A stretch of DNA of 64,000 nt from Candidatus Nitrospira neomarina (lineage in GTDB: Bacteria > Nitrospirota > Nitrospiria > Nitrospirales > UBA8639): contig NZ_CP116968.1 of NCBI RefSeq assembly GCF_032051675.1, forward strand, positions 2,294,001 to 2,358,000, given 5' to 3'. Under the pieces are notes generated by a model. That model saw nothing but the letters and a program-made list of their open reading frames with translations, had not been told where the DNA came from and did not search any database. Positions 15,276 to 31,077 of this stretch are shown here, piece after piece; position 1 is the first letter of the stretch, and every line of letters starts with the position of its first letter. The position numbers and the translations under genes were made by a program.

Positions 15276-16454
15276 TTATTGGACTATTACCTGCATATAG
15301 ATGCTTAGCAGCTGAGCATAGTTTACTTCAGGAGAAAATTTCTCCACGTATCTATTGCGAGCATTTCTCCCCATACGCCGACACTCTCCGGGCCGTTCCA
15401 GCAACCAACAAGCCTTGAGTGCAAGATCCCTAGCATCACCAGGCTCAAAAAATAGCCCGGTTATCCCATCTTCAATAATTTCTCCCATGCTTCCCAATTT
15501 CGATGCCAGCACCGGCAGCCCATGCGCAAATGCCTCCACAATGACCATTGGGAAACCTTCATACCATTCAGAGGGTACAACCAGGAAGAGAGCCTGGTTC
15601 ATCAAGGAACGGATATTATCCTGCTCCTGAAAGCCAAGACCCACAATATTGGCCTGCTCTGGCATCTCAGCTTCAAGAGGACCGCAGCCGGCTACCTTGA
15701 GGTCATAAGGAGTGTCCAAGGTGGTCCATGCTTTAAAAAGAGTTCTGAGTCCTTTTTCCGGACTGAGCCGTCCAACAAAAAGAGCAAATGGTTCACGAGT
15801 TTTCCAATCATCCCGGTTCTTAGGATCAGTAGAGGGTCGTGGATCGACTATGAAGTTGGGCTTCACACTAATCTGGTCTTCAGAAAAGCCGGCCTGAGTG
15901 AATTTTGATTTTGAAAATTCTGTGCATGCAATAAAGTGATTCACTTTTTTCGCCCAGGTTCCTAATCGCCGGTGGGTTGAAACCATATGGGCAACAGCCA
16001 AACTGCCCAGTTTTGAATTACGATAACAGCCATAAACCGCAGCCTGGTAGGGTGAACCCGTAATACATAGTTCACAAATATTTCCATCTCGCATGAGCAA
16101 AGCACCAGGGCAAATGAGTCGATAATTATGGAGGGTCTGCACAACGGCAACACCTTCATCGGCACAAGCATCGTAAATTGATGGACTCAACTGCGGAAAG
16201 AAATTGTGAACATGAACAAGCTCGGGGCGAAAGAAGTTTATTGCCTCTCGCAGCTTTGCGCGCCCAATCCTAGAGTAAGTTGCTGTGAAAGCAGTTTTGA
16301 TCTGCGTGAGAACCCCATTGGGAAGATCCCTATTATCAACAAGCAAAAGTTCAACATCATGACCATGTTGTGTTAATAGAGCATGCTCAGCTTCGACGAC
16401 ATTATCTTCGCCACCGGCCTGCTGATAACGATTATGAACAATCAGGATTCTCAT
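15276..16454 (-). CDS. Glycosyltransferase family 4 (GT-B fold)
   Basis: 392 residues. The N-terminal Rossmann half opens with MRILIVHNRYQQAGGEDNVV and contains LVHVHNFFPQLSP. The C-terminal half has FALFVGRLSPEKGLRTLFKAW, LKVAGCGPLE and the donor-binding segment SEWYEGFPMVIVEAFAHGLPVLAS, the E-x7-E motif of retaining GT4 enzymes. It is probably cytosolic, transferring a nucleotide sugar to the growing lipid-linked repeat unit. It is the last gene of the leftward run of transferases. The linkage and sugar are not predictable. Confidence 0.9.
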   Translation of the reverse strand: MRILIVHNRYQQAGGEDNVVEAEHALLTQHGHDVELLLVDNRDLPNGVLTQIKTAFTATYSRIGRAKLREAINFFRPELVHVHNFFPQLSPSIYDACADEGVAVVQTLHNYRLICPGALLMRDGNICELCITGSPYQAAVYGCYRNSKLGSLAVAHMVSTHRRLGTWAKKVNHFIACTEFSKSKFTQAGFSEDQISVKPNFIVDPRPSTDPKNRDDWKTREPFALFVGRLSPEKGLRTLFKAWTTLDTPYDLKVAGCGPLEAEMPEQANIVGLGFQEQDNIRSLMNQALFLVVPSEWYEGFPMVIVEAFAHGLPVLASKLGSMGEIIEDGITGLFFEPGDARDLALKACWLLERPGECRRMGRNARNRYVEKFSPEVNYAQLLSIYMQVIVQ

Positions 16455-16664
16455 ACGAAATTCTTATTAATGAAACAATATTTCTGCTGCATGGTTCCTA
16501 TCAATAAAAAATACCGTTAGTACTGTTTTTATTTTTTCGATATGCATGTAGGGCAATCAGTGTAAGCTTACCGGCTCGGACGATGCGACCATTTTTCTCC
16601 TAGCCCGGCTCTAAGCACGAACCAACACCCGGAAGACGGCTTATTTTTTGAAATCCTAATGGTT

Positions 16665-17354
16665 TTACTCTTTGGTTGCCACCCACTGGACGCCACCACT
16701 TAATAGATTCGGCCAGAAATTATGCACCACACCGAAACGACCATAGCCGACTTTTTTAACCATCTTAAAACCGAACTTCTCTAGCAGCAAGCGCAGGGAT
16801 CGAAAAGTAAAATAGTGAAAATGCCCGCCATCAAAAAGAATATCACTTCCCAGCCCTTCATTCATTTGGGATGTCGACGGAAAGCGGCCTGCCATAAGCA
16901 GAACTCGCTTCTTGAGAAAAGCGATGTTGGGTGTGTTGATTACCAGTAACCCACCCGGTCTTAGCACCCGGTGCATCTCCTCTGCCGCTTTGTAGACATC
17001 TGGTATATGCTCGATGGTATCGGCTGAAACGACACGATCGATGGAATTTGATGCAAGCTGAGATAAATCCTCCGCCGTCCCCTGAATCGGCAGGAAACAA
17101 AAATCTGCAAGGTTTATTTCTGCATGCGCGAGTCTGTGCTGGGAGTACTCCAAACCAATCAACTTATTAAAACGATGTCTGAACTGATATAAAAGATAAC
17201 CAGAGCCGCACCCAATATCGAGAATGGCTTCCCCCTTTCCTTCGATCGCCGTGATGGCTTCAAGTCGATTCTTGGGCCAGCTACCAAGGGAAACATCGCG
17301 GAAGTTTTCTTTTTGGAGGGATAAATGATAAAACTGATCATACTTGTCTTTCAT
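16665..17354 (-). CDS. Class I SAM methyltransferase (Methyltransf_11-like)
   Basis: 229 residues with a clear SAM-binding motif I ILDIGCGSGYLLYQF, motif II acidic residue in LIGLEYSQHRL, RVVSADTIEHIPDVYKAAEEMHRVLRPGGLLVINTPN as motifs post-II and III. The pattern is that of small-molecule or sugar methyltransferases found in polysaccharide clusters. The N-terminus (MKDKYDQFYHLSLQKENF) is usual for this group. Likely partners are the flanking glycosyltransferases, so methylation of the repeat unit or capping of the chain is reasonable inference only. Confidence 0.82.
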   Translation of the reverse strand: MKDKYDQFYHLSLQKENFRDVSLGSWPKNRLEAITAIEGKGEAILDIGCGSGYLLYQFRHRFNKLIGLEYSQHRLAHAEINLADFCFLPIQGTAEDLSQLASNSIDRVVSADTIEHIPDVYKAAEEMHRVLRPGGLLVINTPNIAFLKKRVLLMAGRFPSTSQMNEGLGSDILFDGGHFHYFTFRSLRLLLEKFGFKMVKKVGYGRFGVVHNFWPNLLSGGVQWVATKE

Positions 17355-17406
17355 ATGCGCTTCTTATCTATCCTAAAAATGGGTCAGCACCAGCTACGGT
17401 AACCAT

Positions 17407-18579
17407 TCATCCTGTAGTCACAGTGTCAGAGTTTCCTTTCCTGTAAACTGGACCCTCTAGCCATGCTCGAATCCCTGCGGTGAAATGATCAACCATATTC
17501 TCTAACGAATACTTTTTGGCACTCTCCTCGCAGCCTCGTTGCATGAGTGTTTGCATTGATTCAGAGGTCAAGTATTCGACGACAGCATTTGCATACGCAT
17601 CTGTCGAATTTGGTGTGATACCACCATTCACTCCATTCACCAGATAAGCAATTTCTGGACTGTGTATGGGTATATCGGTCGTAAACAGTGGCGTGCCGGC
17701 AACAAAACTATCGACGACCGCGAGGCCAACCATTCCTGGCATTAACAAGGCCTTACTCATTAAAAAAAATGGAACACGATCCACCCCATGTTTAGGCCCC
17801 ACGTAATGAAGCCAATGTGTTGTTCTTGCAGCTGTTTCGACGAGATGTTGGTCAGGCCCATCTCCCACAATGATCATCTCAAAATCCGGCAATAAATATT
17901 TTATTTTCAAACATGCTTCAAGTAAAAAAAGTATGCGTTTTTCAGAATAAATTCCTCCACAATACAAACACACATTTTTCCCCTTGAGTCCTAAATTGGT
18001 TTTAAGTCTCGCTATGGCAGCTTGATCCGTTCTCTCCTTTGCTTCGGAAAATTCGAGGACATCAATGGTGTTCTGAACATTGGTGATTCTATCTTTTGAA
18101 AAACCTGCGCCCGCCACGACCTTTGCGCTGATGGAGGTATAGGCAAACCACCAGTCGGCTTGACCTAAAAGGCGGTGCTTAAGACGTTCCCTTGAGCTGT
18201 GTTTGTTCTTGGCCTGGAGATTTTTGCCATGTCCCCAATAGGCAATTTGTGGCCGATTTGTGAACTTTCGACGAAGAAGAAGACAATGATTAACAAGCAA
18301 TCGATTTGCCTGTTCAACAATAATAGAGTCAACACCTAATACGTACTTCAGTACCGGTTGCCAAACAAGCTCTTGCTTCCCGAGTGCCCAATACTGGTTT
18401 TCCACTCGCACCGCCCATGGCTCGTCGATGTGTTGGGTCCGGGGCACCGTACCCATTTTTTCCTGTCCATAAATTAATTTAAGACTGATACCATGGAGAG
18501 CAAGTTTGTGACGCAACTGACAAAATAACTTTATCCTATAATACGGAAGGATCCTCTGAATAATTAATACGGTTTGCAT
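17407..18579 (-). CDS. Glycosyltransferase family 4
   Basis: 390 residues from the ATG at 18579, chosen because the protein then opens with MQTVLIIQRILPYYRIKLF, typical of GT4 N-termini; upstream TTG 18636 or ATG 18627 would add up to 19 residues. The C-terminal half has VCLYCGGIYSEKRILFLLEACLKI, MIIVGDGPDQHLVE and a donor-site segment SKALLMPGMVGLAVVDSFVAGTPLFTTD. In the last motif the first acidic residue of the usual E-x7-E pair is replaced, as in some GT4 subgroups. Part of the leftward transferase block of the exopolysaccharide locus. Confidence 0.87.
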   Translation of the reverse strand: MQTVLIIQRILPYYRIKLFCQLRHKLALHGISLKLIYGQEKMGTVPRTQHIDEPWAVRVENQYWALGKQELVWQPVLKYVLGVDSIIVEQANRLLVNHCLLLRRKFTNRPQIAYWGHGKNLQAKNKHSSRERLKHRLLGQADWWFAYTSISAKVVAGAGFSKDRITNVQNTIDVLEFSEAKERTDQAAIARLKTNLGLKGKNVCLYCGGIYSEKRILFLLEACLKIKYLLPDFEMIIVGDGPDQHLVETAARTTHWLHYVGPKHGVDRVPFFLMSKALLMPGMVGLAVVDSFVAGTPLFTTDIPIHSPEIAYLVNGVNGGITPNSTDAYANAVVEYLTSESMQTLMQRGCEESAKKYSLENMVDHFTAGIRAWLEGPVYRKGNSDTVTTG

Positions 18580-18873
18580 GAGTTCATATTTGAGGGGAAA
18601 AAAGTGATAAGTAATTGAAAAATCCATCAAAGGCAATACGTTCCCAGGCAGGAAAACTTTCGCAGACTACCTTGTCGAAACAATTCGTCAGTCTACCAAA
18701 ATATCGGGATACCTACCAAAAGTTTTTGTATCCAAAAACTTCGAATTATTGAACGAAAATATCAAATTCCCTAAGGTAAGTTTTTCAGAAATTAAATTTC
18801 ACTGCTACCATCAATGCTGTCTGTTCCAACAACTTAATTAGGATGTAGTTTCAACAAGGGTTACCAGCCAAGG

Positions 18874-20157
18874 TTATCCAACTACATATTCCTGTTGTTC
18901 GGCGGTGAGGATTGCCACTTGTCTCTCAAGTAAGATGACGAATAAAAAAATATGTGTGCCGGACCCCACAAGCGATCCTTGCTTAAAAGACAACAAAAAG
19001 GCAAAAACAAAACTGGCGACAAGCGTGGCCCAAATGCCCCGTTGAATAGGATCGTGCTTTACAAGACTATATGCGTTGCGTATTGTCCGAATGGATACCC
19101 ATAAAAGTCCAAGAAAAATTCCCAAACCGAAAATTCCTTCTTCCCCTAATACTTCTATCGGAACCATGTGCGGATAAAAGCCCACAATGTTACCTGCAAA
19201 TGAAGCCGAATTCCCGAGGCCCAAAATAAGCGCTGCAGGATCGCCTGATGATGCCCTCCACCAATGATGGAGTAATTGCGAAGCCATTTGAACCCGTCCC
19301 TCCCAATCCGATTGAAATGTAGATGACGACCAACGGTCCTCAATTGCAGTAAAGGAATTGAGAGCATAGAGAGACAGTGAAGCCAAGCCTATCCCCAGAA
19401 GAGCCCAAACCACATATTGCTTCAGGTTGGATACTGGTCTGCTAAAGGGCAAAAACACAAGCGGAATAGTGACCATCAGGATAAATTGTCCGCGAGTCTC
19501 AGATTTCATTACCAGAATGATACTTGCTACTATCGCGATAAGTTTTATTCCCGTCCATTTCCAACTTTTTTCATGATTGAGCAAGATCGCCGCCAATGTG
19601 ACCAACCCTGCCATTTCAGGGAATGCCAGTGGATCCCAGATCGTTTCGCTGGGATCCCAAAATGTCCCAATGAACCGATTGTCCCAATCCACAAATAAAT
19701 CAACGAGAGTCGCTAATACAGCACCAAGGTATAGAATTGCAGATAAACCATCTTGTAAATCGGTTGGGTGTCGGAATAACAATGGTAACAGGAGCACATT
19801 AAGGACCATATAGGGCCAGCTGTAATTCCACTGCTCCATCCCTTTTTCAAATGCCGGGGACCAGGAGAGGGAGATTGCGGCATAAAGAAACAGGCAGATC
19901 GTTATTATCTGCACCCAAGGGAGCCTTTGAGTCGGCCGAAAGGCAAATGGCTGAGCACGAAATATACCCAGCCCAACCAAGGCAACCATGAACAAGTTGG
20001 TGAATTTTTCATAATGGAAGAAGAAGGGGTGGGCCATCTGTCCCCAGAAATCAAGAACCTTCACGCATATCAGACTGGCCAAAGCAATCGCTGGACGGAG
20101 CCAGGTTCCTACAAGTAGTGCAATGAGGATGCAAACATATATACCGAGGGTAACCAT
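18874..20157 (-). CDS. O-antigen ligase/Wzy-like polymerase membrane protein
   Basis: 427 residues with about ten to twelve hydrophobic segments and a large periplasmic loop in the second half (roughly WSSSTFQSDWEGRVQMASQL to GFYPHM). The sequence MKSETRGQFILMVTIPLVF carries the Arg-Gly pair typical of the O-antigen ligase domain (Wzy_C), and HMVPIEVLGEEGIFGLGIFL matches the downstream conserved region that follows the loop. Such proteins polymerise or ligate undecaprenyl-diphosphate-linked repeat units on the periplasmic face. With a flippase and chain-length protein in the same locus it is the best candidate for the Wzy polymerase. Confidence 0.8.
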   Translation of the reverse strand: MVTLGIYVCILIALLVGTWLRPAIALASLICVKVLDFWGQMAHPFFFHYEKFTNLFMVALVGLGIFRAQPFAFRPTQRLPWVQIITICLFLYAAISLSWSPAFEKGMEQWNYSWPYMVLNVLLLPLLFRHPTDLQDGLSAILYLGAVLATLVDLFVDWDNRFIGTFWDPSETIWDPLAFPEMAGLVTLAAILLNHEKSWKWTGIKLIAIVASIILVMKSETRGQFILMVTIPLVFLPFSRPVSNLKQYVVWALLGIGLASLSLYALNSFTAIEDRWSSSTFQSDWEGRVQMASQLLHHWWRASSGDPAALILGLGNSASFAGNIVGFYPHMVPIEVLGEEGIFGLGIFLGLLWVSIRTIRNAYSLVKHDPIQRGIWATLVASFVFAFLLSFKQGSLVGSGTHIFLFVILLERQVAILTAEQQEYVVG

Positions 20158-20428
20158 ACAGTCAGCTTAGATAATCTCAATTCGAAATAACTGCGGAATA
20201 GACATCGGATCTAATTCACTTGAAGACTGCGTAGATAGAGGATAAGTAAAGTTTGAGGTCATACTTATGAATGGCATTTTTTCAGGAAGGCTGATTTGGT
20301 TTTTACCAATTTTCCTGTATGGAATATCCTTCCCCTTCTGGAGATGGTCACACTCAATACACGATTTTGATTTCAAAATTTTGAGCTTTAATGCCTAAAA
20401 CCTTGGATAGAACTAGATTTCCTTGGGC

Positions 20429-21631
20429 TCACCCCTCAACGGATTCGACCAGGATTCTTGAAAAGTTTTCCAGATTATGTGAGGCGTAGGCTAAACGGCC
20501 GTTTTCCCCGTATTGTTGTGCGATGTTGACATTCCGACTTAGCTCTCCAATGGCAGTGGCAATTGCCGTGGCATTAGAGGCAGTCACAACAATGCCGGAG
20601 CTGAATCGTTCGGTTAAAAACCCGATTAAACCCTCATCACTCGCAATAACCGGTAGTCCCATGACACCCGCTTGCACGAGCACCCCGCTCATGTGGTAAT
20701 GCCCTTGATAGCCAAGCCAAACCACATCAGCAGCTGAGAATACCATATTTTCCTCATCCACACTTAGATATCGGTTCATTTGATGAATCCGACCACTCAT
20801 TTTTAAATTATTGGCCAACGGAGACAAAAGAAATTTCTCTACTTCTTCATCCTGCTTTCCTGCCAACAACAAGCATCCTTCGGAAGGAAAGCTCCGGTCC
20901 TCCATTGCCCGTATTAAAACTTCAATCCCTTTACGTAAGGATAGCGCCCCGTAAACCAGGACGATGAACCCATGTTTCGAAATTCCTAATTCCTGCCTTG
21001 CCTGCTCTCGGCTCATTGAACGTTTTGTTTCCGTACTGTCTGGAATAAAAACCAAACGGGAGCCTTGAAGGAGCGACAGATTTTCAGTGTACTCCTTCAG
21101 TGTCACATCAATCGTAAATAGGGCTTGCAGGAATGAATTCCGAAGGAGTCGAAAAAACAATCGTTCTTTAACCGAATCCAAACTACCAGGGGGAGCTTTG
21201 ACACCACATGCAGAATGATGGAATCCTGCCCTCATTACGAGCCCCGCCCAGGGGGTTTTGGCAAAAGGCGAACCGAGAATCGCAAAGGCGTAAGTGCAAT
21301 AATCCAGGTAAGGCAGCATAACGAAATCAATCTGACAATTTTCTAATCCCCGCTTGTATAAATCCTGAAAAATCCTTCTAAATTTGATCATTTTATGTAT
21401 CATCTTAAAGAAATTTCTGTCGGAGGTGTCGAATCTTTGGAGGTCACAGGTAATGAACGAAATATTTTTGTCCTGTGTCGATAACATCGCTTGAACTGTC
21501 GGATGATGAAGACTCTCCTTGAACGTGCCAACCTGTACTTGATGTCCTTTTTTGATAAGGGCATAAACCATCCATTGAAGATAGATACCGTGATGCCCAC
21601 TCACAAAAGGTTCTATAATCAGAATATTCAC
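20429..21631 (-). CDS. Glycosyltransferase, GT-B fold (family 4-like)
   Basis: 400 residues read from a GTG at 21631, giving MNILIIEPFVSGHHGIYLQW. The second half shows FIVLVYGALSLRKGIEVLIRAM, LLLAGKQDEEVEKFL, VDEENMVFSAADVVWLGYQGHYHMSGVLVQA and GLPVIASDEGLIGFL, the usual GT4 C-terminal layout with a degenerate donor motif. The first half (TLKEYTENLSL) is less conserved. The start lacks a good ribosome site, so the exact N-terminus is uncertain. It is inside the leftward exopolysaccharide block, and a roughly 500-bp spacer precedes it. Confidence 0.8.
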   Translation of the reverse strand: MNILIIEPFVSGHHGIYLQWMVYALIKKGHQVQVGTFKESLHHPTVQAMLSTQDKNISFITCDLQRFDTSDRNFFKMIHKMIKFRRIFQDLYKRGLENCQIDFVMLPYLDYCTYAFAILGSPFAKTPWAGLVMRAGFHHSACGVKAPPGSLDSVKERLFFRLLRNSFLQALFTIDVTLKEYTENLSLLQGSRLVFIPDSTETKRSMSREQARQELGISKHGFIVLVYGALSLRKGIEVLIRAMEDRSFPSEGCLLLAGKQDEEVEKFLLSPLANNLKMSGRIHQMNRYLSVDEENMVFSAADVVWLGYQGHYHMSGVLVQAGVMGLPVIASDEGLIGFLTERFSSGIVVTASNATAIATAIGELSRNVNIAQQYGENGRLAYASHNLENFSRILVESVEG

Positions 21632-22137
21632 AGGCTTTGGACCAATGTGTTATTTACTGACAATTTGCTGGATGGATTTCAAATACAATTTTTGAAATTC
21701 CCTAATCCCAATGGGCTTTTCGCAATCAGAAATCTCAAATGCGTTTCATTGAATGCTGTCAGGTGAAGTTATCAATCATCATCTGGAAATTTATCGACAC
21801 CCATCAGGAAATTGTAAATCGAATTCTGGATACAATTGAGAATTTATAATATTTAACTTATGAAAGCAGCTCATGCTGCAAAAACTACTTTTCAAACTTG
21901 TTTTGAAGGGAAAATAGATGAAATTGTTGGACCAATGCTTTCAGTCACCGCTAAAAGTCTCTAATGCAAGCAGCATGGCATTCAGCGAATCCACCATTTA
22001 AATTTCTTTGAAGGTCATCTCTTAGCAAACTATGGGGAAATGGAGTCATAAAAATTAAGTTTTATACGCTTGATAGGTTCCCCTGTAACGGAAAAGAAAA
22101 TGCAATGACCTTTATTTCGCAAAATTAATTATCGTTG
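21632..22137. other. A+T-rich spacer inside the EPS locus
   Basis: About 500 bp between a glycosyltransferase and the pyruvyl transferase gene. No gene, hairpin or recognisable remnant was found; it may hold a promoter for the leftward genes. Confidence 0.4.
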
Positions 22138-23316
22138 TCAGCTATTCTCTTTAAGGTAATGCTGAAAGCAGGAAGCAACGTCCTGCCACATTTGTTCATT
22201 GGGTAAGACCATTTCCTTTTTGAAGTTTTGCAAAGTCTGCCTGATAGTCGCATTGTGAGTCTCGTTCAAACATTCTGCAATAAGATCGAGGAGTTCTTCG
22301 CTTGTTTGATCGGGATCGAAGTTTAAATTGGGAATGCCGAAATCCAATAAAAGATGGGAGTATTTGTGGGCCCAACCAATTGCAATAGCAGGCACACCAG
22401 ACGATAGCGCTGCAACCAACGCATGAAATCTTGATCCGACAACTAAATCGGCGTTTGAAATAATTCCTTTTGCGCGTTTTGGAGTCACATTGGTGACAAC
22501 TTCAACACGCGGTGAATCGAGTCTGTCGGCGAGTTGATGCGCAATAGCAAGATCGCCACCACCTGGCGCATGGCTTAGAAGGACAATGTCACGATTTAGT
22601 GCAAGCGCTCTTTGCCCAGCTTGAGTCAATAATTGAAGGTAACGTGAACCCCACTTTTTGGCTCCCTTATCGAACATTCGTTCATTTGGAATAATGCAAG
22701 CGAAGGGGGGTCGGGCTTCAACGAATTCTCCAGACGAGAAAATGGTAATGTCTGGTGCGAGCTTTACCTTTGCTTGGTCCTCAAGGATTTCATTAATCGC
22801 CAAAAGGGAACTTCTATCTCGAACATAAATGCGATCGATGTACGGCAAAAAATTCAAGGTTTCTCGCTTGACTTTCTCATTTTCAAATGGTCCCATCATT
22901 TGGGGAAGCATGATTACTGGTTTGCCGCGATCATGTAAAAAGCGAAATCGACGCCCACAAACTCTAGAAATATCCGGTCCCCAATGATCCCCAAATGCAT
23001 AGCCGGAGATGTCAATCATGGCATCGACTTTGTGGCGAGGAACGATTCCAAGAATGCGCTGCAATTCGTCCGGTATCAATCGTTCGAAGAACGGTGCGGT
23101 AAGGTATTTGATGGGATTTCGCCGCCAAGTTTGTGGCAAGACGGTTTTTAAATTATAGGTTGCGGCTATTTCGTAAGTCGTACCGGGGCTCGGTAGTGCG
23201 CAGAATTCAATCGGGCCAAGATGAGATAGGCGACTCGACAGTTCTGAAATAACTGTTTCCAGCATGAGCCAAGCACCGTAATTATGGAAACCAGCGCCGT
23301 GAATTTGAATGATCAT
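22138..23316 (-). CDS. Polysaccharide pyruvyl transferase family protein
   Basis: 392 residues. Family features: MIIQIHGAGFHNYGAWLML at the start (the conserved G..N.GD/A segment), AMIDISGYAFGDHWG, PVIMLPQMMGPFEN, IYVRDRSSLLAINE, LAPDITIF, and the C-terminal ADLVVGSRFHALVAALSSGVPAIAIGW, which is the most diagnostic block of the PS_pyruv_trans family. Members transfer pyruvate from phosphoenolpyruvate to form ketals on exopolysaccharide sugars, though some homologues have other roles. The ATG at 23316 overlaps the upstream nitroreductase stop codon by an ATGA, indicating translational coupling. Confidence 0.88.
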   Translation of the reverse strand: MIIQIHGAGFHNYGAWLMLETVISELSSRLSHLGPIEFCALPSPGTTYEIAATYNLKTVLPQTWRRNPIKYLTAPFFERLIPDELQRILGIVPRHKVDAMIDISGYAFGDHWGPDISRVCGRRFRFLHDRGKPVIMLPQMMGPFENEKVKRETLNFLPYIDRIYVRDRSSLLAINEILEDQAKVKLAPDITIFSSGEFVEARPPFACIIPNERMFDKGAKKWGSRYLQLLTQAGQRALALNRDIVLLSHAPGGGDLAIAHQLADRLDSPRVEVVTNVTPKRAKGIISNADLVVGSRFHALVAALSSGVPAIAIGWAHKYSHLLLDFGIPNLNFDPDQTSEELLDLIAECLNETHNATIRQTLQNFKKEMVLPNEQMWQDVASCFQHYLKENS

Positions 23317-24398
23317 TGGGCGTAGATTCGGATTTCGTCAAGAGCCTTTTTTTGAGAGTAGGGAACTTGTCCTTTAGGGTCCGCGTAGCCGAAAGAAATT
23401 GAAAGTATTGGGCGTTCGTGCTTCGCAAGGCCAAGACGTTTTTCCATCAACTTTTCTCTTGCCTCAATATCTGGCCAATTAATGCAACATGAGCTTACAC
23501 CTTGTACCTCTAATGCGAACTGAAATGCCATGGCCGCAAGTGCAGAATCGATGTAAATCACATGTCTGTCGCGGTCGTCCGAAAAAGCATCCAATTGGCC
23601 AACAATAACGGCAATGGCAGGGAAATTTTGGCTGAATCCAATCGTACCCATTGGTATGCTGCCAACGTCGGAAGCTGACAGCTGGTTATCAAAAATTATA
23701 AAGCGGAATGGTTGTCGATTGCAGGCGCTTGGTGAGAGCATTGCAACCTCCATAGCCTGATCAATAATGGCACGAGACACAGGTTTTTGTAGATACCAGC
23801 GGCAACTTCGTCGATATTGTGCGAGCTTATGTAATTGATTAATAGAAATATCGGGAATGTCCTCACTCTTTCTGGTGTAGGGGCAAAAAGGAGAAGAATC
23901 GTCCCTGTCGGTGCTTTTAAGCAGGTTTATTGTTCTGAATTTTTTTTTGCAAGTAACTATGGTTGGATGCTCCCTAGTTATTGAGAAATAATGATCGAGA
24001 ACGTCGTGAGCCCATTTGAGCAACAGTTCATTTTCTTTCTTGATTTTTTGTCGTTGACGATTGGAAAGTGCATCGAAAATAACAACCGTTTCAGCAATAT
24101 AATCTAAAGCAAAATCGTCCCGCCTAGGCCTCATAATCAGACCTTTTTCTAAGCGATGTATGTTTCGTCTTAATTTGAATTCAGCACCATGACTTTGGCT
24201 TCGTTCAACTTCATCCATATGTTTGTACCTGCCCGCAAAGATTGCGCCATGATCGCGACGGAATCGTCCGCTTAGAAAACACCAAAGATCGGCAAATATA
24301 GGTACTCGTGAACAAAAACCAATCAGTTCTCTGTAGAAGACTGATTGCTCATAACGATTGAGCAAATAGCGGAAGATGCGTTTGAAAAAGTAAATCAC
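23313..24398 (-). CDS. Nitroreductase-family protein of a polysaccharide cluster
   Basis: 361 residues from the GTG at 24398, 10 bases after the flippase stop; the open frame extends upstream to 24542 inside the flippase gene, but that part is unlikely to be translated. The C-terminal 200 residues are nitroreductase-like: RRSCRWYLQKPVSRAIIDQA, MLSPSACNRQPFRFIIFD, IAVIVGQLDAF and SALAAMAFQFALEVQGVSSC, with the Arg-Ser-x-Arg FMN phosphate-binding signature. The N-terminal region carries LRRNIHRLEKGLIMRPRRDDF, which I associate with nitroreductase homologues of capsule loci. Oxidoreductase activity on a sugar, cofactor or lipid is possible; the substrate is unknown. Coupled to the pyruvyl transferase by ATGA. 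Confidence 0.8.
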   Translation of the reverse strand: MIYFFKRIFRYLLNRYEQSVFYRELIGFCSRVPIFADLWCFLSGRFRRDHGAIFAGRYKHMDEVERSQSHGAEFKLRRNIHRLEKGLIMRPRRDDFALDYIAETVVIFDALSNRQRQKIKKENELLLKWAHDVLDHYFSITREHPTIVTCKKKFRTINLLKSTDRDDSSPFCPYTRKSEDIPDISINQLHKLAQYRRSCRWYLQKPVSRAIIDQAMEVAMLSPSACNRQPFRFIIFDNQLSASDVGSIPMGTIGFSQNFPAIAVIVGQLDAFSDDRDRHVIYIDSALAAMAFQFALEVQGVSSCCINWPDIEAREKLMEKRLGLAKHERPILSISFGYADPKGQVPYSQKKALDEIRIYAQ

Positions 24399-24408
24399 TT
24401 TTGTTGCG

Positions 24409-25896
24409 CTAATTTTTCCCGAGAACGAAAGCGAAGCGTTTTGGCATGACGCTTTGCACAAAGTCCCGCAAACCAAGTCTAAAATAATTGTCCAGCCAGA
24501 GGGATCCCAAAGAAAAAGTAGACAGCAAAACACACCCACCAATCATTAGACGCAGAGCATATAGGTGGGGGGTAATTACTGACATCGAAATCCACGCAGC
24601 AACTCCCGAAAGTGTGGCAATACAAATTGGAATGATTAGGCATTTAAAAATTTCACGGCCGGAAATGTTGACGACATGAATAATCAAGAAATACCGAAGT
24701 GCTTGAGCGGAAAGGCCGATCAACGCTAATGAAAGAACAGTCCCCATGATTCCGTAACGAATGGATATTGGAATTAGTCCAACTAGGAACAAGATCAACA
24801 TAAAAAACTGAAAGACGGTTGCAATTGCCGGCCTGCCGATCCCAAGAAATAGTACACTATTTGACGCTCCTAAACCTCGACAGGCTCCCCATATGGCTAA
24901 AGGAGGTAACAGAGTTGCCATCATTTTGTACTCCGGTCCAAAGAATAATGCCGTGAAATCCTCGGCAAGAATTGCAAATCCTACAATCGAAAGTGAAGCA
25001 AGAAAACTTGAGGAGGCCAGAATTCGAAGAAATGCCGAAGAAAGTCTTGTATGTTGGTGTTGCAGCTGGCTGTAGGCAGGAAGCGCTGTTCCTCCAATTA
25101 CGGCCATAACCTCCATAATTGGGCCACAAGCCAATGCATAAGCAATCTGATAAACAGCTAGATCTTCAAGTGTAAGTAATTTACCGATAACTATATCGCC
25201 TCCTCTCACTAGGGTAAAGCTTAAGATTGCTGAAATGAAAACCCATACACCAAAGGAGAATAGCTCGTAAGACTTGGACATTGAGAACGAAAAATTACCC
25301 CAACGTTTTTCTAAAACAAAACTGGCTATTGCCGTAAATATTGCAGCACCTACCCGACCCCAAACTAAAGCAATAGCAGAAGGTGTTTGAAGCGCAACTA
25401 GCAAAGATAGAATTAAATCAACGAACGCACTACCCACTTGGATTCCGACTACCTTACTAAACCGAAGCTCTCTATGAAGCAACACCAAACCAATGTTTTG
25501 AATGCCAAAGCAAACTGGTACGAGTGCCAGAATGTAAAGTAGACTGGCAACACCAGCTTTATCAAAGAATACTTCAAAATTATCAGCGAGAAGTAGAGTT
25601 GCAATGCTGAGGATAATTCCACGCACCACCTGAGTTACCCATGCAGTTCCTAGGTATTCTTGAACATTCCCTTTTCGTTGAATTAATGCGGTCTGCATGC
25701 CAGTTTGTGAGAGCGTCTCTAGCAACTGCATTACAACGGCAGCCAAGCCAAATAGACCAATCTGGTCTTGTGGTAAGATAGCAGCGAGAAGAATTAGTCT
25801 TACGGTTGTGAGCAGCCGAGCGAAAACCTTGGCACCAGCCAACCAGAGAGCACCCATTGCGACCTGCTTGCCGAAATTCTTTCCTATTTCATCCAT
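24409..25896 (-). CDS. Wzx-type polysaccharide flippase
   Basis: 495 residues, strongly hydrophobic with about twelve to fourteen membrane segments. The opening KQVAMGALWLAGAKVFARLL and LLAAILPQDQIGLFGLAAVVMQLLETLSQTG matches the N-terminus of the polysaccharide synthase/MOP flippase family, including the conserved MQTALIQRKG. These proteins move undecaprenyl-diphosphate-linked repeat units from the cytosolic to the periplasmic leaflet. It lies directly upstream of the nitroreductase-like gene in the leftward operon. Base composition is visibly A+T-richer than the flanking regions of the window. Confidence 0.88.
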   Translation of the reverse strand: MDEIGKNFGKQVAMGALWLAGAKVFARLLTTVRLILLAAILPQDQIGLFGLAAVVMQLLETLSQTGMQTALIQRKGNVQEYLGTAWVTQVVRGIILSIATLLLADNFEVFFDKAGVASLLYILALVPVCFGIQNIGLVLLHRELRFSKVVGIQVGSAFVDLILSLLVALQTPSAIALVWGRVGAAIFTAIASFVLEKRWGNFSFSMSKSYELFSFGVWVFISAILSFTLVRGGDIVIGKLLTLEDLAVYQIAYALACGPIMEVMAVIGGTALPAYSQLQHQHTRLSSAFLRILASSSFLASLSIVGFAILAEDFTALFFGPEYKMMATLLPPLAIWGACRGLGASNSVLFLGIGRPAIATVFQFFMLILFLVGLIPISIRYGIMGTVLSLALIGLSAQALRYFLIIHVVNISGREIFKCLIIPICIATLSGVAAWISMSVITPHLYALRLMIGGCVLLSTFSLGSLWLDNYFRLGLRDFVQSVMPKRFAFVLGKN

Positions 25897-26232
25897 ATTT
25901 TGTAAAAATGAGACGCTGCGATTTCTTGAAATAGGGGTCTAGTGCCCCCCAACAACGTAGCGGTACCCAGCGCTGCTTCCTTTAATCTACCGTTTCGATT
26001 AGACTATTCGCATGTTCAGACGAGTTGCTTTTCAGGTAGGGTGTTCGTAAACACAACTCTCATTAATTAGTTTTTGAGCTGAATTGGTTGAGAAACTTGT
26101 CCTATTGTCGTACATTTTGCCTGACATAATCGACAAGATTCCGCGACACAAGCACTCCGGAAGGTCGGTTCCAAGTACTTTAGGAATATTAGGTGAATGC
26201 ATTTTCAACCGGTTCATTGGTGTCCACTAATT
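25897..26232. other. Intergenic region upstream of the flippase
   Basis: About 340 bp. A 61-codon minus-strand frame lies inside but has no family resemblance or ribosome site. No hairpin or repeat was recognised. Confidence 0.4.
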
Positions 26233-27432
26233 CTAATAAACTGTCACACAGAGATATTTGAAAATTTTAGAAAGGTCTAGCCTAAGTTTCAGTGCCTGCC
26301 ATATCCTAACCCCACAATATTTGATCCATGTTTGCACCGGTAAAGAAATTCTGTAGAAAAAAACAAAATTCCGAAATTCATCTCTAGCGGTCTGTGGTAA
26401 TTCAGAAACATCCTCTTTCCTACAAAGCCCGATATCTTCCCCCTTTATACCCATAATTACATTCATCTCCGCTGGTCTTAATTCAAGGGCAAAGCCTTGC
26501 ACCCGCTTCTTTGCTGCCTTGGATGTTAGAATGTAACTTTTTGCAACTCTTTTTAAATTTTTTGTTCCATATATATCTACTTCAAAATCGTAGCACTGCA
26601 GCTCCTTACATAATCTAGAAAGTCGATCACTTGATAGTTCACAGTAGGTATCATACACAGCAATGGAGTCATCAATGTCCCCAAATTCAAATTTCCTCCT
26701 ATTTAACTCTAAGGGAACTTGGAATGATGAGTTTTTCAACATATTCGTGCCGCTTTCACCAAAGTTTGTGGTCAGTGAAATGTATGGATAGACGAAGTAT
26801 TTGTCCTGAGCAATCATGTATGAATTGAAATATTTCTTCCACGAGGATTCTGGCCACGCGGCTATTTTTTCTGGGAGGTTTCGTAAACCATCTCCATTTT
26901 TATTTTTCGCATACCACTCCATAAACCGGCTCCATTGCTTATCCGTCCAGGCCTGCCCAGAGGATGCAGGGTGCTGCATAAAATACACATCCCATTTATC
27001 CTTAATTGGGTTAAATGGGAATCGATCTGCACTCGTTTGAATAAAACCATGGGCATATAAAGAGATACCTGAAATACGGCTATCATTTTGATAAAAATTA
27101 ATGGCTTGAACTCCATATTGGTAGAAGCAAGGTGAAATATATAAATCATCCTCAAGCAATATAATCGATCCATATTCATCAGTCAGTTGCCCACATGCAA
27201 GTATATGTTTATGGAGGCCGAGATTTTCATCCCTCAGGATGACCCTCTTCTTGCCATACTTCCAAATAAAAGAAGTAGCAATTTCAGCTACCGAAGAGGG
27301 CCCTCCATAGTCCACACTCAAAACAAGATCGACTGCTTCTGCCTGTAAATCTGCATTTAATGATTCAAGTAGCCTTTGCAATGCATTGGGACGATTAAAG
27401 GCCACGACGACTACAGCCGGTTTATAGTTCAT
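26233..27432 (-). CDS. GT2-like (GT-A fold) glycosyltransferase
   Basis: 399 residues. The N-terminal domain opens with PAVVVVAFNRPNALQRLLESLNA, has LVLSVDYGGPSS, LRDENLGLHKHILAC and the metal-binding acidic motif IILLEDDLYISPCFYQY (an EDD version of DxD). GSGQAWTDKQW-like downstream sequence (SSGQAWTDKQW) probably holds the acceptor or catalytic residues. The C-terminal 130 residues are less conserved. It is expected to be cytosolic and to act on the lipid-linked repeat unit. Similar proteins are annotated as glycosyltransferase or hypothetical protein in polysaccharide clusters. Confidence 0.8.
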   Translation of the reverse strand: MNYKPAVVVVAFNRPNALQRLLESLNADLQAEAVDLVLSVDYGGPSSVAEIATSFIWKYGKKRVILRDENLGLHKHILACGQLTDEYGSIILLEDDLYISPCFYQYGVQAINFYQNDSRISGISLYAHGFIQTSADRFPFNPIKDKWDVYFMQHPASSGQAWTDKQWSRFMEWYAKNKNGDGLRNLPEKIAAWPESSWKKYFNSYMIAQDKYFVYPYISLTTNFGESGTNMLKNSSFQVPLELNRRKFEFGDIDDSIAVYDTYCELSSDRLSRLCKELQCYDFEVDIYGTKNLKRVAKSYILTSKAAKKRVQGFALELRPAEMNVIMGIKGEDIGLCRKEDVSELPQTARDEFRNFVFFYRISLPVQTWIKYCGVRIWQALKLRLDLSKIFKYLCVTVY

Positions 27433-27451
27433 AAAACTCGTTTCAAATCAA

Positions 27452-29488
27452 TTAATATTTACCGATTTCATGAAACGGTATTTGGTTAAATCCAAATTCT
27501 AATGACTTAGATTTTGAATCGACTTGAAAATTAGATTTCATAACAGTATTAAAGTTTGGCGTACCTTCTTCAAAATTCTGATTGAATTCAATCAATCCTT
27601 CTGCTTCAGGAAGAATCAGCAATTTTCCTGATTTAAGAAATAGATTATGTTCAACAAGATTTCCAAGTGGGTGCCCAGGCTTTTCATTCAAAATATTCAC
27701 TAATTGAGGATAACGAGTGCTCCATGGCGGCTTCTTGTATGGCATTGCAAGAAGTGCTTTCATCGTTTGACCGTTAGGCTGGATATGGGAACTTTTTGGT
27801 TTAGCTCCACGGCCATCTATATACACATTAAGATTGGTATTAGAAAAAATGTTGTTAACAATTCGATTATCCCTACCACCACCTAATAGTATCCCCCTTT
27901 GTACATTGTGAAATATATTTCCCTGAATCAAAAATCCGCTCGCCAAATCGTCAAGATACACTGCTTGAATGGCTCCTCCAGCAATTGGGACTAAATCATG
28001 GAAATAATTATATCTCACAATATGCCCACGTTCTGTCCAATCTCTTCCAATATAAATAGCACCGGAATCGCTTGTTTCTTTGACCACATTATAAATTTCG
28101 TTGTATTCAACAATATGATCATTCCCGCCGAGTTTTATAGCATTATGAGGCATGTCGTAGAGTTCATTATGACTAATCGTGACTCCAACACTCTTGCTGA
28201 GAACAATACCGGGGCTTCCGGATTGAATCACTCCAATATGGTGAATGACATTGTTATCAATAATATGGTTCGCCGGGGTTAAAGTGAGTCGGTCGCCGGC
28301 CTTCCTAATCAGAATCCCACCCTGCCCAGCGTCCTTAATCTCTGAATTTTTAATTTCATGATTGAACCCTCGTTCAATATTCACCGCATACCCAGCACTA
28401 TTACGGAAGGTATTTTTCGCAAAAAGAACTCTTTTCCCGTCTTTTATGGACACCAGAGTGTTTCGTGATTCTTCAATGAAGATATCTTGAAATGTTACCC
28501 ACGAGGTATCATTAAAGGAAAGGACAAGTGGAAGAATGGATAATTCCACCGTCTGAGGTTCCAGCGGTCCTGGAGGATAAAAATATATTTTCTTTGTGTT
28601 TCTATCGAAAAACCATTCACCAGGCGAATCAATTTCTGAAAGGAGATTTAAGGCAAAATAGCGTTGGCCGTCCCGATGTCCATATTTATGAAAAGAGTAA
28701 GGAGTTGGGTGTAGGATATCTGGGGATTCAGGGGCGGCCTTGATTGTCTTCGTTACAGTATCAATCGTTTCAATTTTTTCGAACGCATTCGCCCAATCCC
28801 AGAAAAAGAAGCCATTGAGATAAATATCGGCTTCAGCAAACCATCGCTCTGGGCGTGAGCCGAAATAGGTGAAATGGGCTTCAACGGTTCCCGTTTTTCT
28901 ATGGCTTGTAATTTTTGTAGGTCCTACAGCGCGATCAATATTTGTATAGCCTGCATTCGGCCACCGAGATAACGGCATTCGCTTACTGTCATAAAACAAC
29001 TCTAACAGGTTTGCATTATTGGCCTGTGGCCATTGACCTTGGAGAAATACCGGAACAGGTTCTCCAAAATCTACGTCTTTCCAACCATTGAGATCAGCTT
29101 CAACAATATGTGGACGAGCAGAGCTTTCTAAACGCGAAAGGATAGCCTCATCCGTAACCGGAACAAATCCATTAACTTTTCGCCCACCGGAAATACTTAC
29201 CGTCTCCCCAGGCTTGCTTCGATAGATAATCGGAAATTTCTCACTCCCAGAATCCTTCTCATCAAATTCAACAGGTGCATCCAAATAATACGTTCCCTTT
29301 TCAAGCCAAACCGTTATGGATTCTTTGGGAGGCAACCCCTTTTTATATTCCCTTACCGCTTGCCTAACCTCATTTAATGATTGACCAGCATGCGTCACAA
29401 AAAATTCTGCTGCATAGGCACCAGGAGTAACAATGAATACGAATAAACCCAGAACAACGAAAAAACGCATATTAGTAATCGATCTCAT
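27452..29488 (-). CDS. Exported right-handed parallel beta-helix protein
   Basis: About 678 residues from the ATG at 29488; a TTG at 29527 and an ATG at 29470 are alternatives. A Sec signal peptide (MRFFVVLGLFVFIVTPGAYA) is clear. The opening domain has KGTYYLDAPVEFDEKDSGS and YRSKPGETVSISGGRKVNGF, seen in GH141-like and related beta-helix glycosidases. After a beta-sandwich-like insert come repeated coils with N/I/V ladders, for example NHIIDNNVIHHIG, VTISHNELYDMP and NHIVEYNEIYN. The fold is used by polysaccharide lyases, hydrolases and epimerases. In this locus it may trim or modify the exported polymer in the periplasm or outside; no catalytic residue assignment is possible here. Confidence 0.75.
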   Translation of the reverse strand: MRSITNMRFFVVLGLFVFIVTPGAYAAEFFVTHAGQSLNEVRQAVREYKKGLPPKESITVWLEKGTYYLDAPVEFDEKDSGSEKFPIIYRSKPGETVSISGGRKVNGFVPVTDEAILSRLESSARPHIVEADLNGWKDVDFGEPVPVFLQGQWPQANNANLLELFYDSKRMPLSRWPNAGYTNIDRAVGPTKITSHRKTGTVEAHFTYFGSRPERWFAEADIYLNGFFFWDWANAFEKIETIDTVTKTIKAAPESPDILHPTPYSFHKYGHRDGQRYFALNLLSEIDSPGEWFFDRNTKKIYFYPPGPLEPQTVELSILPLVLSFNDTSWVTFQDIFIEESRNTLVSIKDGKRVLFAKNTFRNSAGYAVNIERGFNHEIKNSEIKDAGQGGILIRKAGDRLTLTPANHIIDNNVIHHIGVIQSGSPGIVLSKSVGVTISHNELYDMPHNAIKLGGNDHIVEYNEIYNVVKETSDSGAIYIGRDWTERGHIVRYNYFHDLVPIAGGAIQAVYLDDLASGFLIQGNIFHNVQRGILLGGGRDNRIVNNIFSNTNLNVYIDGRGAKPKSSHIQPNGQTMKALLAMPYKKPPWSTRYPQLVNILNEKPGHPLGNLVEHNLFLKSGKLLILPEAEGLIEFNQNFEEGTPNFNTVMKSNFQVDSKSKSLEFGFNQIPFHEIGKY

Positions 29489-29883
29489 CTTACGAAGGGT
29501 CCACAAAAAAACTTCCCTAAGATCCAAACTTCCTTCGCTCTGATCGGATGCACTTTCAGTGGCCCTCTTTCGGACACCTCGTCAAAAATTCCAATGCCTT
29601 TTTATGCATTTTCCCTGTTTTGTTAATAGCTACACCGGCTAAGAGTGCGCGATGTTTCCCACGAATCGATCACCATTAAAGGTTGATTTCTCCGACATTG
29701 GATTTGCCCACCCCTTTGAAACTCTCCTTGGGAGAATTTCCTCGTTCAACCACTAGAGTCGATTCCCCCTTCAACTCCTGCTTCCATTTCTACGCATTCT
29801 CATAACACACCTCTTACCTATTGTAGCCACTTTCAGATGTGTTCATGTGCCAGTCTACCGGCTCAAAAGAGATCCTGAGCTGA
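29489..29883. other. Intergenic region between beta-helix and SGNH genes
   Basis: About 390 bp with no credible gene. No strong terminator or repeat was recognised. Confidence 0.4.
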
Positions 29884-31077
29884 TTAAGGCTTTTGCTTGA
29901 TGGAACGATATAAAAGCTCCGCCACGACTTGAGACCCGTGCTCATTGAGATGACCTTCTCGTGGGAAGAACATGGGGATTTCTTTTCCGGTTTCTTGAAG
30001 TGCGGGGGAAGCATCAATAAACGGAATTCCAAGTTCATCGCAAAATTTTCTCAGTAAGTTTTGGGGTCTCTCTAAATCTTCTAGAAAGGTCTCATATCTT
30101 GGATCTTTTTCCCGTTTATTGGCCAGGATTGCCTTATGAATTCCTGAAGCCTGAAAGGGTGAAGGTATGAACAATATAGAAAGATCTGCACCATACTCAT
30201 TTCTGGTGAGCTTAGCCAGGTAAATAAGTAGATCTCGCGTTACCGCCCAACGCTCTTCCCAACCAGGGTTATACCACCCTGTAATAATACCGGGGACGCG
30301 CGGTAGATCAGGAGCAATGCCGAATATCTCCAGGTAGTCTAGTAATTCAGAATTGGCAGCGATTAAAATTTCAATTCGCGAACGAACAAAGTTAAAAAAC
30401 AAGGACCTCTCAAGAAAGCTCCTCCTTGTTTTTCTGATTTCAGGTTTCTCAGGAACGCTATGGTCGATTTCTCCCCGGTTATTGATAGTAAATACCGGCT
30501 TTATGGTGGAGCGTTTGAGTGAATAGTCAAGTCCGAGGTTATCAAGGATATCATTTGTGAAAAATGCCAAAATAAGTTTGTTGCCAATTTGGTATCCATG
30601 ATCCACTAAATCTTTAATCAAAAGTATTTCTTGTCCCGTACCATATCCTGGTGTGGATACATTGATAAACTCAAATTGTTCTTCACCAAGTTTTTGGAGT
30701 TGGTCCGTAAGATGCTCTCCATCGTTTAAGGCCTCACCAAACACAAAGGAATCACCTAGGATTGTGAGACGCTCTTTGTCAGCCGGTAAGGCAAACGAAA
30801 ACTTATGGTTTCGAAGCCCATCCTCATTGACGGTGAATTCCACTTCACGAAATGCTCTGAAATTGAAATGACGGTAATTCCCAGGACGTAGCGCCCAACC
30901 GCGACTTTCATTATACATCTTAAAGTCGCCTGACAACCCAGATGCTTCTGTCTTGATAGAAAGCCTAAAATAAGTTTCTCCAATAACAAAAATAAAGAAG
31001 ATCCCCAAAAAGGTTCCCAGACCGATTAGCCCAAGATTGATAAGCCTGCTGTTGGTATTTATAGCCGTTACATTCAC
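29884..31077 (-). CDS. Membrane-anchored SGNH/GDSL-like hydrolase
   Basis: 397 residues from a GTG at 31077. One N-terminal membrane helix (about 15-34: GLIGLGTFLGIFFIFVIGE) anchors a periplasmic domain. SGNH blocks: LTILGDSFVFGEAL (nucleophile Ser in GDS), FINVSTPGYGTGQEI (Gly block), ILAFFTNDILDN (Asn block) and a C-terminal HLNEHGSQVVAELL containing the catalytic His. The Asp normally three residues before that His is replaced by Asn or Glu in this stretch. Such proteins in polysaccharide clusters are often O-acetyl transferases or esterases. Nothing shows which one applies here. Confidence 0.75.
   Translation of the reverse strand: MNVTAINTNSRLINLGLIGLGTFLGIFFIFVIGETYFRLSIKTEASGLSGDFKMYNESRGWALRPGNYRHFNFRAFREVEFTVNEDGLRNHKFSFALPADKERLTILGDSFVFGEALNDGEHLTDQLQKLGEEQFEFINVSTPGYGTGQEILLIKDLVDHGYQIGNKLILAFFTNDILDNLGLDYSLKRSTIKPVFTINNRGEIDHSVPEKPEIRKTRRSFLERSLFFNFVRSRIEILIAANSELLDYLEIFGIAPDLPRVPGIITGWYNPGWEERWAVTRDLLIYLAKLTRNEYGADLSILFIPSPFQASGIHKAILANKREKDPRYETFLEDLERPQNLLRKFCDELGIPFIDASPALQETGKEIPMFFPREGHLNEHGSQVVAELLYRSIKQKP

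Follow-up and report, generated by a model that had tools for sequence, protein, structure and literature searches.

In peptidoglycan synthesis by MurA and MurB, an enolpyruvyl group is taken from phosphoenolpyruvate (PEP), and MurB reduces the enolpyruvyl ether of UDP-N-acetylglucosamine to the lactyl ether of UDP-N-acetylmuramic acid. Capsules, O-antigens, and exopolysaccharides of marine and cyanobacterial origin also contain lactyl (1-carboxyethyl) ethers. No enzymes are known to us to have been assigned to the synthesis of these ethers outside peptidoglycan, and makers of lactyl-ether sugars outside peptidoglycan were not found in the open-licence literature. Pyruvate ketals are formed by pyruvyl transferases such as CsaB, WcaK, and Pvg1, which belong to the Pfam family PF04230 and have the GT-B fold. 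Here, we describe a locus of Candidatus Nitrospira neomarina in which a PF04230 protein (hereafter P) is encoded with a two-domain nitroreductase-like protein (hereafter NTR) and a flippase. The locus lies in a stretch of 64,000 nucleotides (nt) that was analysed as a whole (NZ_CP116968.1, positions 2,294,001 to 2,358,000; hereafter the window). It is proposed, with a probability of roughly 0.58, that NTR is a dedicated flavin reductase which, together with P, would make a lactyl ether rather than a ketal.

The proposed pathway is similar to MurA/MurB in its predicted logic, enolpyruvyl transfer from PEP followed by flavin reduction to a lactyl ether. The proteins are different: NTR has a nitroreductase fold and P has a GT-B fold, and the NTR-P loci that were opened are mostly capsule, exopolysaccharide, and O-antigen clusters, not peptidoglycan clusters. 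The flavin mononucleotide (FMN)-dependent nitroreductases BT_1316, iodotyrosine deiodinase, BluB, and the C-terminus of FbiB share the fold of the C-terminal domain of NTR, but they are without its extra N-terminal domain, which is marked by the motif HxxEKG.

Association of NTR and P across genomes

A scan of a genome collection found at least 533 relatives of NTR, and the best 80 by similarity to the query were kept. Their loci come from Planctomycetota, Cyanobacteriota, Bacteroidota, Pseudomonadota, and other groups, with a dozen from Pseudomonas. Of the 80 fetched loci, 79 contain P, and the gap between NTR and P is less than 1,600 nt in 76. On the strand of NTR, P is located downstream of it in 69 loci and upstream in 5; another 5 loci encode P on the opposite strand, and 1 (L021) is without it. 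Pfam confirmed PF04230 in all the P proteins tested (45/45, alignment A5). The 69 same-strand downstream pairs show three gene orders: flippase-NTR-P (37), NTR-P without a flippase beside it (17), and NTR-flippase-P (15). The two genes overlap in 19 of these pairs, in 13 of them by exactly 4 nt, and are separated by 0-50 nt in 19 more. The arrangement of flippase, NTR, and P exceeds chance.

As the 80 loci had been picked by similarity to the query, genomes were also drawn without regard to P. The genomes at the centres of draws, G512 and G513, had been picked for carrying NTR and were left out of the counts. In the draw by order, the NTR family is present in 21 of 393 other genomes; all 21 have P, 19 within 600 nt. 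The corresponding numbers are 5 of 368 other genomes (P in 5/5) for the draw by class, 2 of 285 genomes (P in 2/2) for the draw by family, and 1 of 394 other genomes (P in 1/1) for the draw by phylum. There is some redundancy: one of the five in the class draw (G873) is the genome of locus L084, with which L095 shares its contig, and G1187 in the family draw is shared with another draw.

When 26 genomes were searched whole, PF04230 was found within 5 kb of 27 of the 28 NTR genes and of none of the 68 other PF00881 (nitroreductase) genes (Fisher p = 5e-23, with genes treated as independent). Conversely, 27 of the 50 PF04230 genes in these genomes have NTR within 5 kb. Two genomes (G501 and G523) have two NTR genes each, and every copy is beside its own P. 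The only miss is Halocynthiibacter (G509, locus L021), where P is 65 kb from NTR. This distant P clusters with the NTR-linked P of Roseivivax, Rhodophyticola, and Qipengyuania. Two loci with a nitroreductase domain match alone (L101 and L102) and one PF04230 row under the cut-off were left out. The split matches in L202 and L203 lack the motif; they are ordinary short nitroreductases and not family members. There is very little doubt that the association of NTR and P is real.

Besides P and the flippase, the neighbours of the cassette are mostly glycosyltransferases, and no constant partner was observed among the 25 neighbour families listed per side (70 and 67 genes). Of the 67 neighbours scanned directly upstream of the cassette, six match Slr4, a family of S-layer proteins. 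In the plasmid locus of Ruegeria sp. B32 (L003, 1-29635), a polysaccharide cluster is duplicated in inverted orientation, and no PF04230 was found there. Two copies of one NTR protein there flank a gene annotated as methionyl-tRNA formyltransferase, and NTR adjoins ATP-grasp and HAD genes.

In Escherichia coli, a search by DNA similarity, which more divergent NTR genes would escape, located NTR in 17 of 5,426 genomes and P in the same 17. In every one of these genomes, the features covered by the match include the O146 wzx gene. The three O146 loci viewed have the order rfbBDAC - NTR - wzx - P - glycosyltransferase - wzy - glycosyltransferases. These clusters were reached by the second of two DNA queries from the enterobacterial locus L148; the first matched glycosyltransferases in L151, a capsule locus of E. 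coli, and no reductase adjoins the PF04230 gene of that locus. DNA queries from L005, L144, L146, and L150 found no NTR in E. coli (L144 matched secB alone and L146 an acetyltransferase). Among Enterobacteriaceae, no draw centre was found via WzyE in 94 genomes or via rpoB in 58, and rpoB in 38 further genomes gave G1057, which is 93% identical to E. coli. L148 is not shown to be a Klebsiella K22 locus, as the K22 primer sites are not in its 20 kb. In the laboratory strain E. coli ATCC 8739, the O146 cluster has an IS1 element between two pieces of glycosyltransferase (L152:2274-3862), which may leave the O-antigen incomplete.

NTR is a two-domain subfamily

NTR is an unnamed subfamily, in which a helical N-terminal domain is joined to a nitroreductase-fold domain. 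No NCBIfam model reaches its cut-off for the NTR of the window (P0001) or for five relatives. The AlphaFold2 model of P0001 has a mean predicted local distance difference test score (pLDDT) of 90.9. Its C-terminal domain matches the PDB structure 8cqt with a template modelling score of 0.85 by target length, in agreement with the superfamily match to PF00881 (80.5 bits vs the cut-off of 23.5). None of the 50 PDB matches shown was seen to cover the N-terminal domain; all are nitroreductase-fold chains of 163-249 residues, with at most 225 aligned columns.

The N-terminal motif residues H81, E84, K85, and G86 are invariant in the alignment of 69 rows and also in a divergent alignment of 16 rows, ten of which are just 18-24% identical to P0001. 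H..EKG was found in all 85 loci tested, and CNRQ of the C-terminal domain in 84. Because of this conservation in divergent rows and across loci, the N-terminal motif is considered a part of the family as sampled. Besides the residues of the second motif given in Table 1, R196, S198, R200, G251, R278, C304, N307, G337, and S348 are invariant in the 16 rows. R196, S198, R200, and CNRQ are assigned to FMN and would fit the predicted binding of this cofactor. Homology of NTR to MurB was considered and rejected, as NTR has the nitroreductase fold and no match to MurB.

Two lineages of P

The P of the window (P0002) is a member of PF04230 (99.8 bits vs the cut-off of 25.3). Its structure model has a mean pLDDT of 94.4, and GT-B chains are among its PDB matches. 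A [SD]RxH stretch of Pvg1 aligns with P, but not significantly (E = 0.36). P0002 is far below the NCBIfam equivalog cut-offs for ketal enzymes, with 67.8 vs 213.1 bits for CsaB and 33 vs 727.1 bits for WcaK. P sequences are very divergent, showing 20-38% identity to P0002 within alignment A5.

In a quick maximum likelihood tree of 68 PF04230 proteins, supported by the Shimodaira-Hasegawa-like approximate likelihood ratio test (SH-aLRT) only and with several long branches, one clade (SH-aLRT 98) holds 36 NTR-linked P proteins. The P of the window is included and groups with Planctomycetota members. Rows with a doubtful choice of frame (L164, L166, L167, L170, and L172) were dropped. A second, distant lineage (SH-aLRT 100, 12 rows) contains nine NTR-linked P and three without NTR. 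Unlike the ketal pyruvyl transferases, the 36 NTR-linked P form their own clade, with a flavin reductase encoded alongside, whereas no NTR, MurB-like, or FrhB frame was found in 18 other PF04230 loci (L180-L196 and L151). The mirror correlation between NTR and P is 0.39, compared with a maximum of 0.35 in 2,000 permutations, although shared ancestry alone can give a part of it.

Other flavin reductases in the place of NTR

All 12 tree rows of the distant P lineage have a flavin reductase gene, either directly beside P or one gene away. It is NTR in nine, a MurB-like protein in two (L177 and L178, Table 1), and FrhB in one (L179, 6 nt from P). By gene position, in these two loci, a MurB-like protein can therefore occupy the slot of NTR. 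Both MurB-like genes sit in polysaccharide clusters, and no peptidoglycan genes were recognised by eye in the stretch. The possibility that FrhB or MurB also accompanies NTR was rejected, since phmmer at 1e-5 found no frame of either kind in any of the 107 NTR loci.

When plasmids were searched with FrhB as the query, 84 records were obtained. In all five loci opened, which were chosen by FrhB and not by random draw, a P of the distant lineage adjoins FrhB or is fused to it. The fusion, on a Marinibacterium plasmid (L199:3429-6485), is a PF04230-FrhB protein of 1018 amino acids (aa), and it adjoins a UDP-glucose 6-dehydrogenase gene. The 13-kb plasmid p35_D of Klebsiella aerogenes (L197) contains genes annotated as a lipopolysaccharide biosynthesis protein, FrhB, a pyruvyl transferase, and two glycosyltransferases, and it may hold part of a surface-polysaccharide locus that was transferred to a plasmid. 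The FrhB-PF04230 pairs of Paracoccus (L198), Sinorhizobium (L200), and Rhizobium (L201) have a gene for inositol-3-phosphate synthase nearby, by annotation in L198 and as recognised by eye in the others. Such pairs may thus also act outside polysaccharides.

Lactyl ether or ketal

In the proposed mechanism, P would move the enolpyruvyl group of PEP onto one hydroxyl of a sugar in the lipid-linked repeat unit. A hydride from the FMN of NTR would then reduce the enolpyruvyl ether to a lactyl ether, with no ketal closure. The flippase, often in the same cassette, would flip the repeat, and polymerisation would follow. The N-terminal domain of NTR probably shapes the sugar site, although this is a guess. 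The MurB_C family is named UDP-N-acetylenolpyruvoylglucosamine reductase, and since a MurB-type reductase is found in the slot of NTR, enolpyruvyl reduction is the most economical reading. It could be generalised: a PF04230 enolpyruvyl transferase combined with any of three unrelated flavin reductases (NTR, MurB-like, or FrhB) would make lactyl ethers outside peptidoglycan, and the presence of a reductase would tell lactyl ether from ketal. The odds for this general scheme appear about even.

An earlier sequence-only reading of the window had suspected an undescribed redox step coupled to a ketal-forming enzyme, and had named beforehand the co-occurrence of this NTR subfamily with PS_pyruv_trans as the check, with no co-occurrence speaking against it. 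Co-occurrence was found, both in 79 of the 80 loci and in the whole genomes (27/28 vs 0/68), and the redox partner is strongly supported. The ketal-forming partner is probably wrong, because MurB-like proteins and FrhB replace NTR and because some Klebsiella types have pyruvyl genes without pyruvate.

According to an excerpt of Pan et al. 2015 (PMC4616057), 46 Klebsiella capsule types are without pyruvate, and four of them (K8, K22, K37, and K66) carry pyruvyl genes. The same excerpt counts two nitroreductases and one F420-hydrogenase over the 79 capsule clusters as a whole, and states no function for the two nitroreductases. K22 contains 4-O-[(S)-1-carboxyethyl]-D-glucuronic acid, by a title cited in PMC7246685 and PMC3857182; in excerpts of the same two papers, K37 has the sugars of K22 minus acetyl, and the genes of K22 except for one frameshift. 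As far as gene counts and titles go, K22 and K37 agree with a lactyl-ether module: their clusters have pyruvyl-transferase genes, but their capsules have no pyruvate. The K66 capsule presumably has the same 1-carboxyethyl residue. An excerpt of PMC5983295 further names Nostoc commune and Vibrio alginolyticus as reported sources of lactyl-glucuronic acid.

Glucuronic acid as one acceptor is in line with the GumK-type glucuronosyltransferase gene next to the cassette in L143 and with the UDP-glucose 6-dehydrogenase gene of the Marinibacterium plasmid. The rml genes of the O146 loci suggest that sugars beyond glucuronic acid may be used as acceptors, too.

Several observations weigh against lactyl ether formation by NTR and P. 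P is absent from 29.6 kb of the Ruegeria plasmid locus and is not near NTR in Halocynthiibacter, and in two loci of the order draw (L128 and L136) it is 5.6-6.0 kb off on the opposite strand. In the tree, NTR-linked and other rows of the distant lineage are intermixed, and the NTR-linked P of L098, which has a long branch, belongs to neither lineage. The swap of the partner rests on three loci. The two MurB-like genes, both from cyanobacteria, are judged by position and may be paralogues of a housekeeping murB. The FrhB-P pairs of Paracoccus and rhizobia are outside an evident polysaccharide cluster. To our knowledge, ketal formation is the sole reaction shown for PF04230 enzymes, and they are not known to release an enolpyruvyl intermediate. 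K8 is one of the types with pyruvyl genes, but no lactyl group is known to us for it. No structure of the O146 O-antigen was found in the open-licence literature.

The alternative that survives best is that P forms an ordinary pyruvate ketal and NTR serves a different step, on a sugar, a lipid carrier, or a nucleotide precursor, while the genes travel as an exchange cassette. The scarcity of NTR in the class of the window and the low GC content of the cluster would fit such a cassette, as would flippases and glycosyltransferases as the usual neighbours. However, NTR and P stay together while the flippase is before them, between them, or absent, and P is retained even at a distance of 65 kb in Halocynthiibacter. 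The mirror correlation, partly explicable by shared ancestry, and the unrelated reductases in the place of NTR beside the same P lineage also make this alternative unlikely.

A little less probable still is that NTR and P act on the same residue but with another reduced product, a different ether-linked hydroxy acid, or with another enol donor. The divergence of P leaves room for it, and 2,4-dihydroxypentanoic acids are known ether-linked acids in O-antigens. The MurB-like proteins in the same position point instead to enolpyruvyl chemistry, and K22, by the title, bears a lactyl group.

That NTR is an oxidase, a dehydrogenase, or a flavin-destructase-like enzyme oxidising the decorated sugar is very improbable: albonoursin synthase, like BluB an oxidase/flavin-destructase-type member of the superfamily, is the second-best PDB sequence match of P0001, but this match and the weak ones to BluB, far below the cut-off, are at the superfamily level only, and MurB, which can take the slot of NTR, is a reductase.

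A pairing of NTR with a pyruvyl transferase was not found described in open-licence full texts, where the one mention of relevance was the count of two nitroreductases in 79 Klebsiella capsule clusters; subscription papers were outside this search, and an earlier report is possible. A review on pyruvate substitutions (PMC6801904) has, in the main text, no word starting with nitroreductase or reductase.

The locus in the window

The coordinates of the features are summarised in Table 1. The sequence-only reading had described a tightly coupled trio of flippase, nitroreductase-like frame, and pyruvyl transferase, with a nitroreductase-fold C-terminus behind a separate N-terminal segment. All three frames were found on the minus strand with the 10-nt gap and the ATGA overlap described, and both the PF00881 match and the structure model agree with the division of NTR.

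Table 1. Features of the flippase-NTR-P locus and of the two MurB-like loci. Coordinates are those of the window unless a locus is given.
Feature	Coordinates	Strand	Evidence or remark
P (P0002), PF04230 polysaccharide pyruvyl transferase, GT-B fold	22138..23316	-	PS_pyruv_trans 3.4e-28
ATGA overlap, NTR stop/P start	23313..23316	-	NTR TGA ends 23313, P ATG begins 23316
NTR (P0001), two-domain nitroreductase-like protein, 361 aa, GTG start	23313..24398	-	Pfam Nitroreductase 2.2e-22
NTR C-terminal nitroreductase-fold domain, about residues 186-358	23325..23843	-	PF00881; best PDB matches FMN nitroreductases
Motif SPSACNRQP, residues 222-230	23709..23735	-	P223, C226, N227, R228, Q229 invariant in 16 rows
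NTR N-terminal helical domain, about residues 1-180	23859..24398	-	eight helices before residue 157 in model
Signature HxxEKG[LM], residues 81-87	24138..24158	-	alignments of NTR relatives
Flippase (P0003), MOP-type oligosaccharide flippase	24409..25896	-	Pfam Polysacc_synt_3 1.9e-48
Polysaccharide cluster: glycosyltransferases, weak Wzy_C-like protein, methyltransferase-like frame (by eye), beta-helix protein, weak SGNH/AlgX-like protein	15276..31077	-	Pfam and open reading frames
MurB-like frame of L177	L177:7035-7889		47 nt from P; 90.3 bits, under murB cut-off 144.5
MurB-like frame of L178	L178:6829-7689		1 nt from P; 147.7 bits, over murB cut-off 144.5

The flippase also matches the NCBIfam MOP flippase PRK10459 (2e-51), under the curated cut-off. 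Its stop codon TAG is at 24409-24411, and the NTR start codon GTG follows 10 nt on at 24398-24396. The list of open reading frames has an alternative start, TTG at 24542 inside the flippase, which gives 409 aa. The GTG start is favoured, because the longest possible NTR frames are 340-390 aa in 69 of the 80 relatives, with a median of 363. The beta-helix protein of the cluster, at 27452-29527, has a NosD-like match and a weak GH141-like match below the cut-off, and it is possibly a polymer-modifying enzyme.

The GC content is 0.41-0.44 at 12-32 kb of the window and 0.49-0.54 at both ends. NTR is present in 1 of 269 genomes of the class, the own genome alone, and likewise in the own genome only among 40 relatives searched; the phylum draw has it in 2 of 395 genomes, the own genome included. 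NTR is thus rare in the class and the phylum, and the NTR-P cassette was therefore probably acquired.

Implications

If the proposal is true, it would name enzymes that make lactyl-ether sugars, and it would provide a sequence rule that separates ketal clusters from lactyl-ether clusters, both of which are now annotated as "pyruvyl transferase". It would also account for the Klebsiella types that have pyruvyl genes but no pyruvate. The two-step chemistry of MurA and MurB would then have been built a second way, from different, unrelated folds, and it could be tested directly which enzymes make lactyl-ether sugars.

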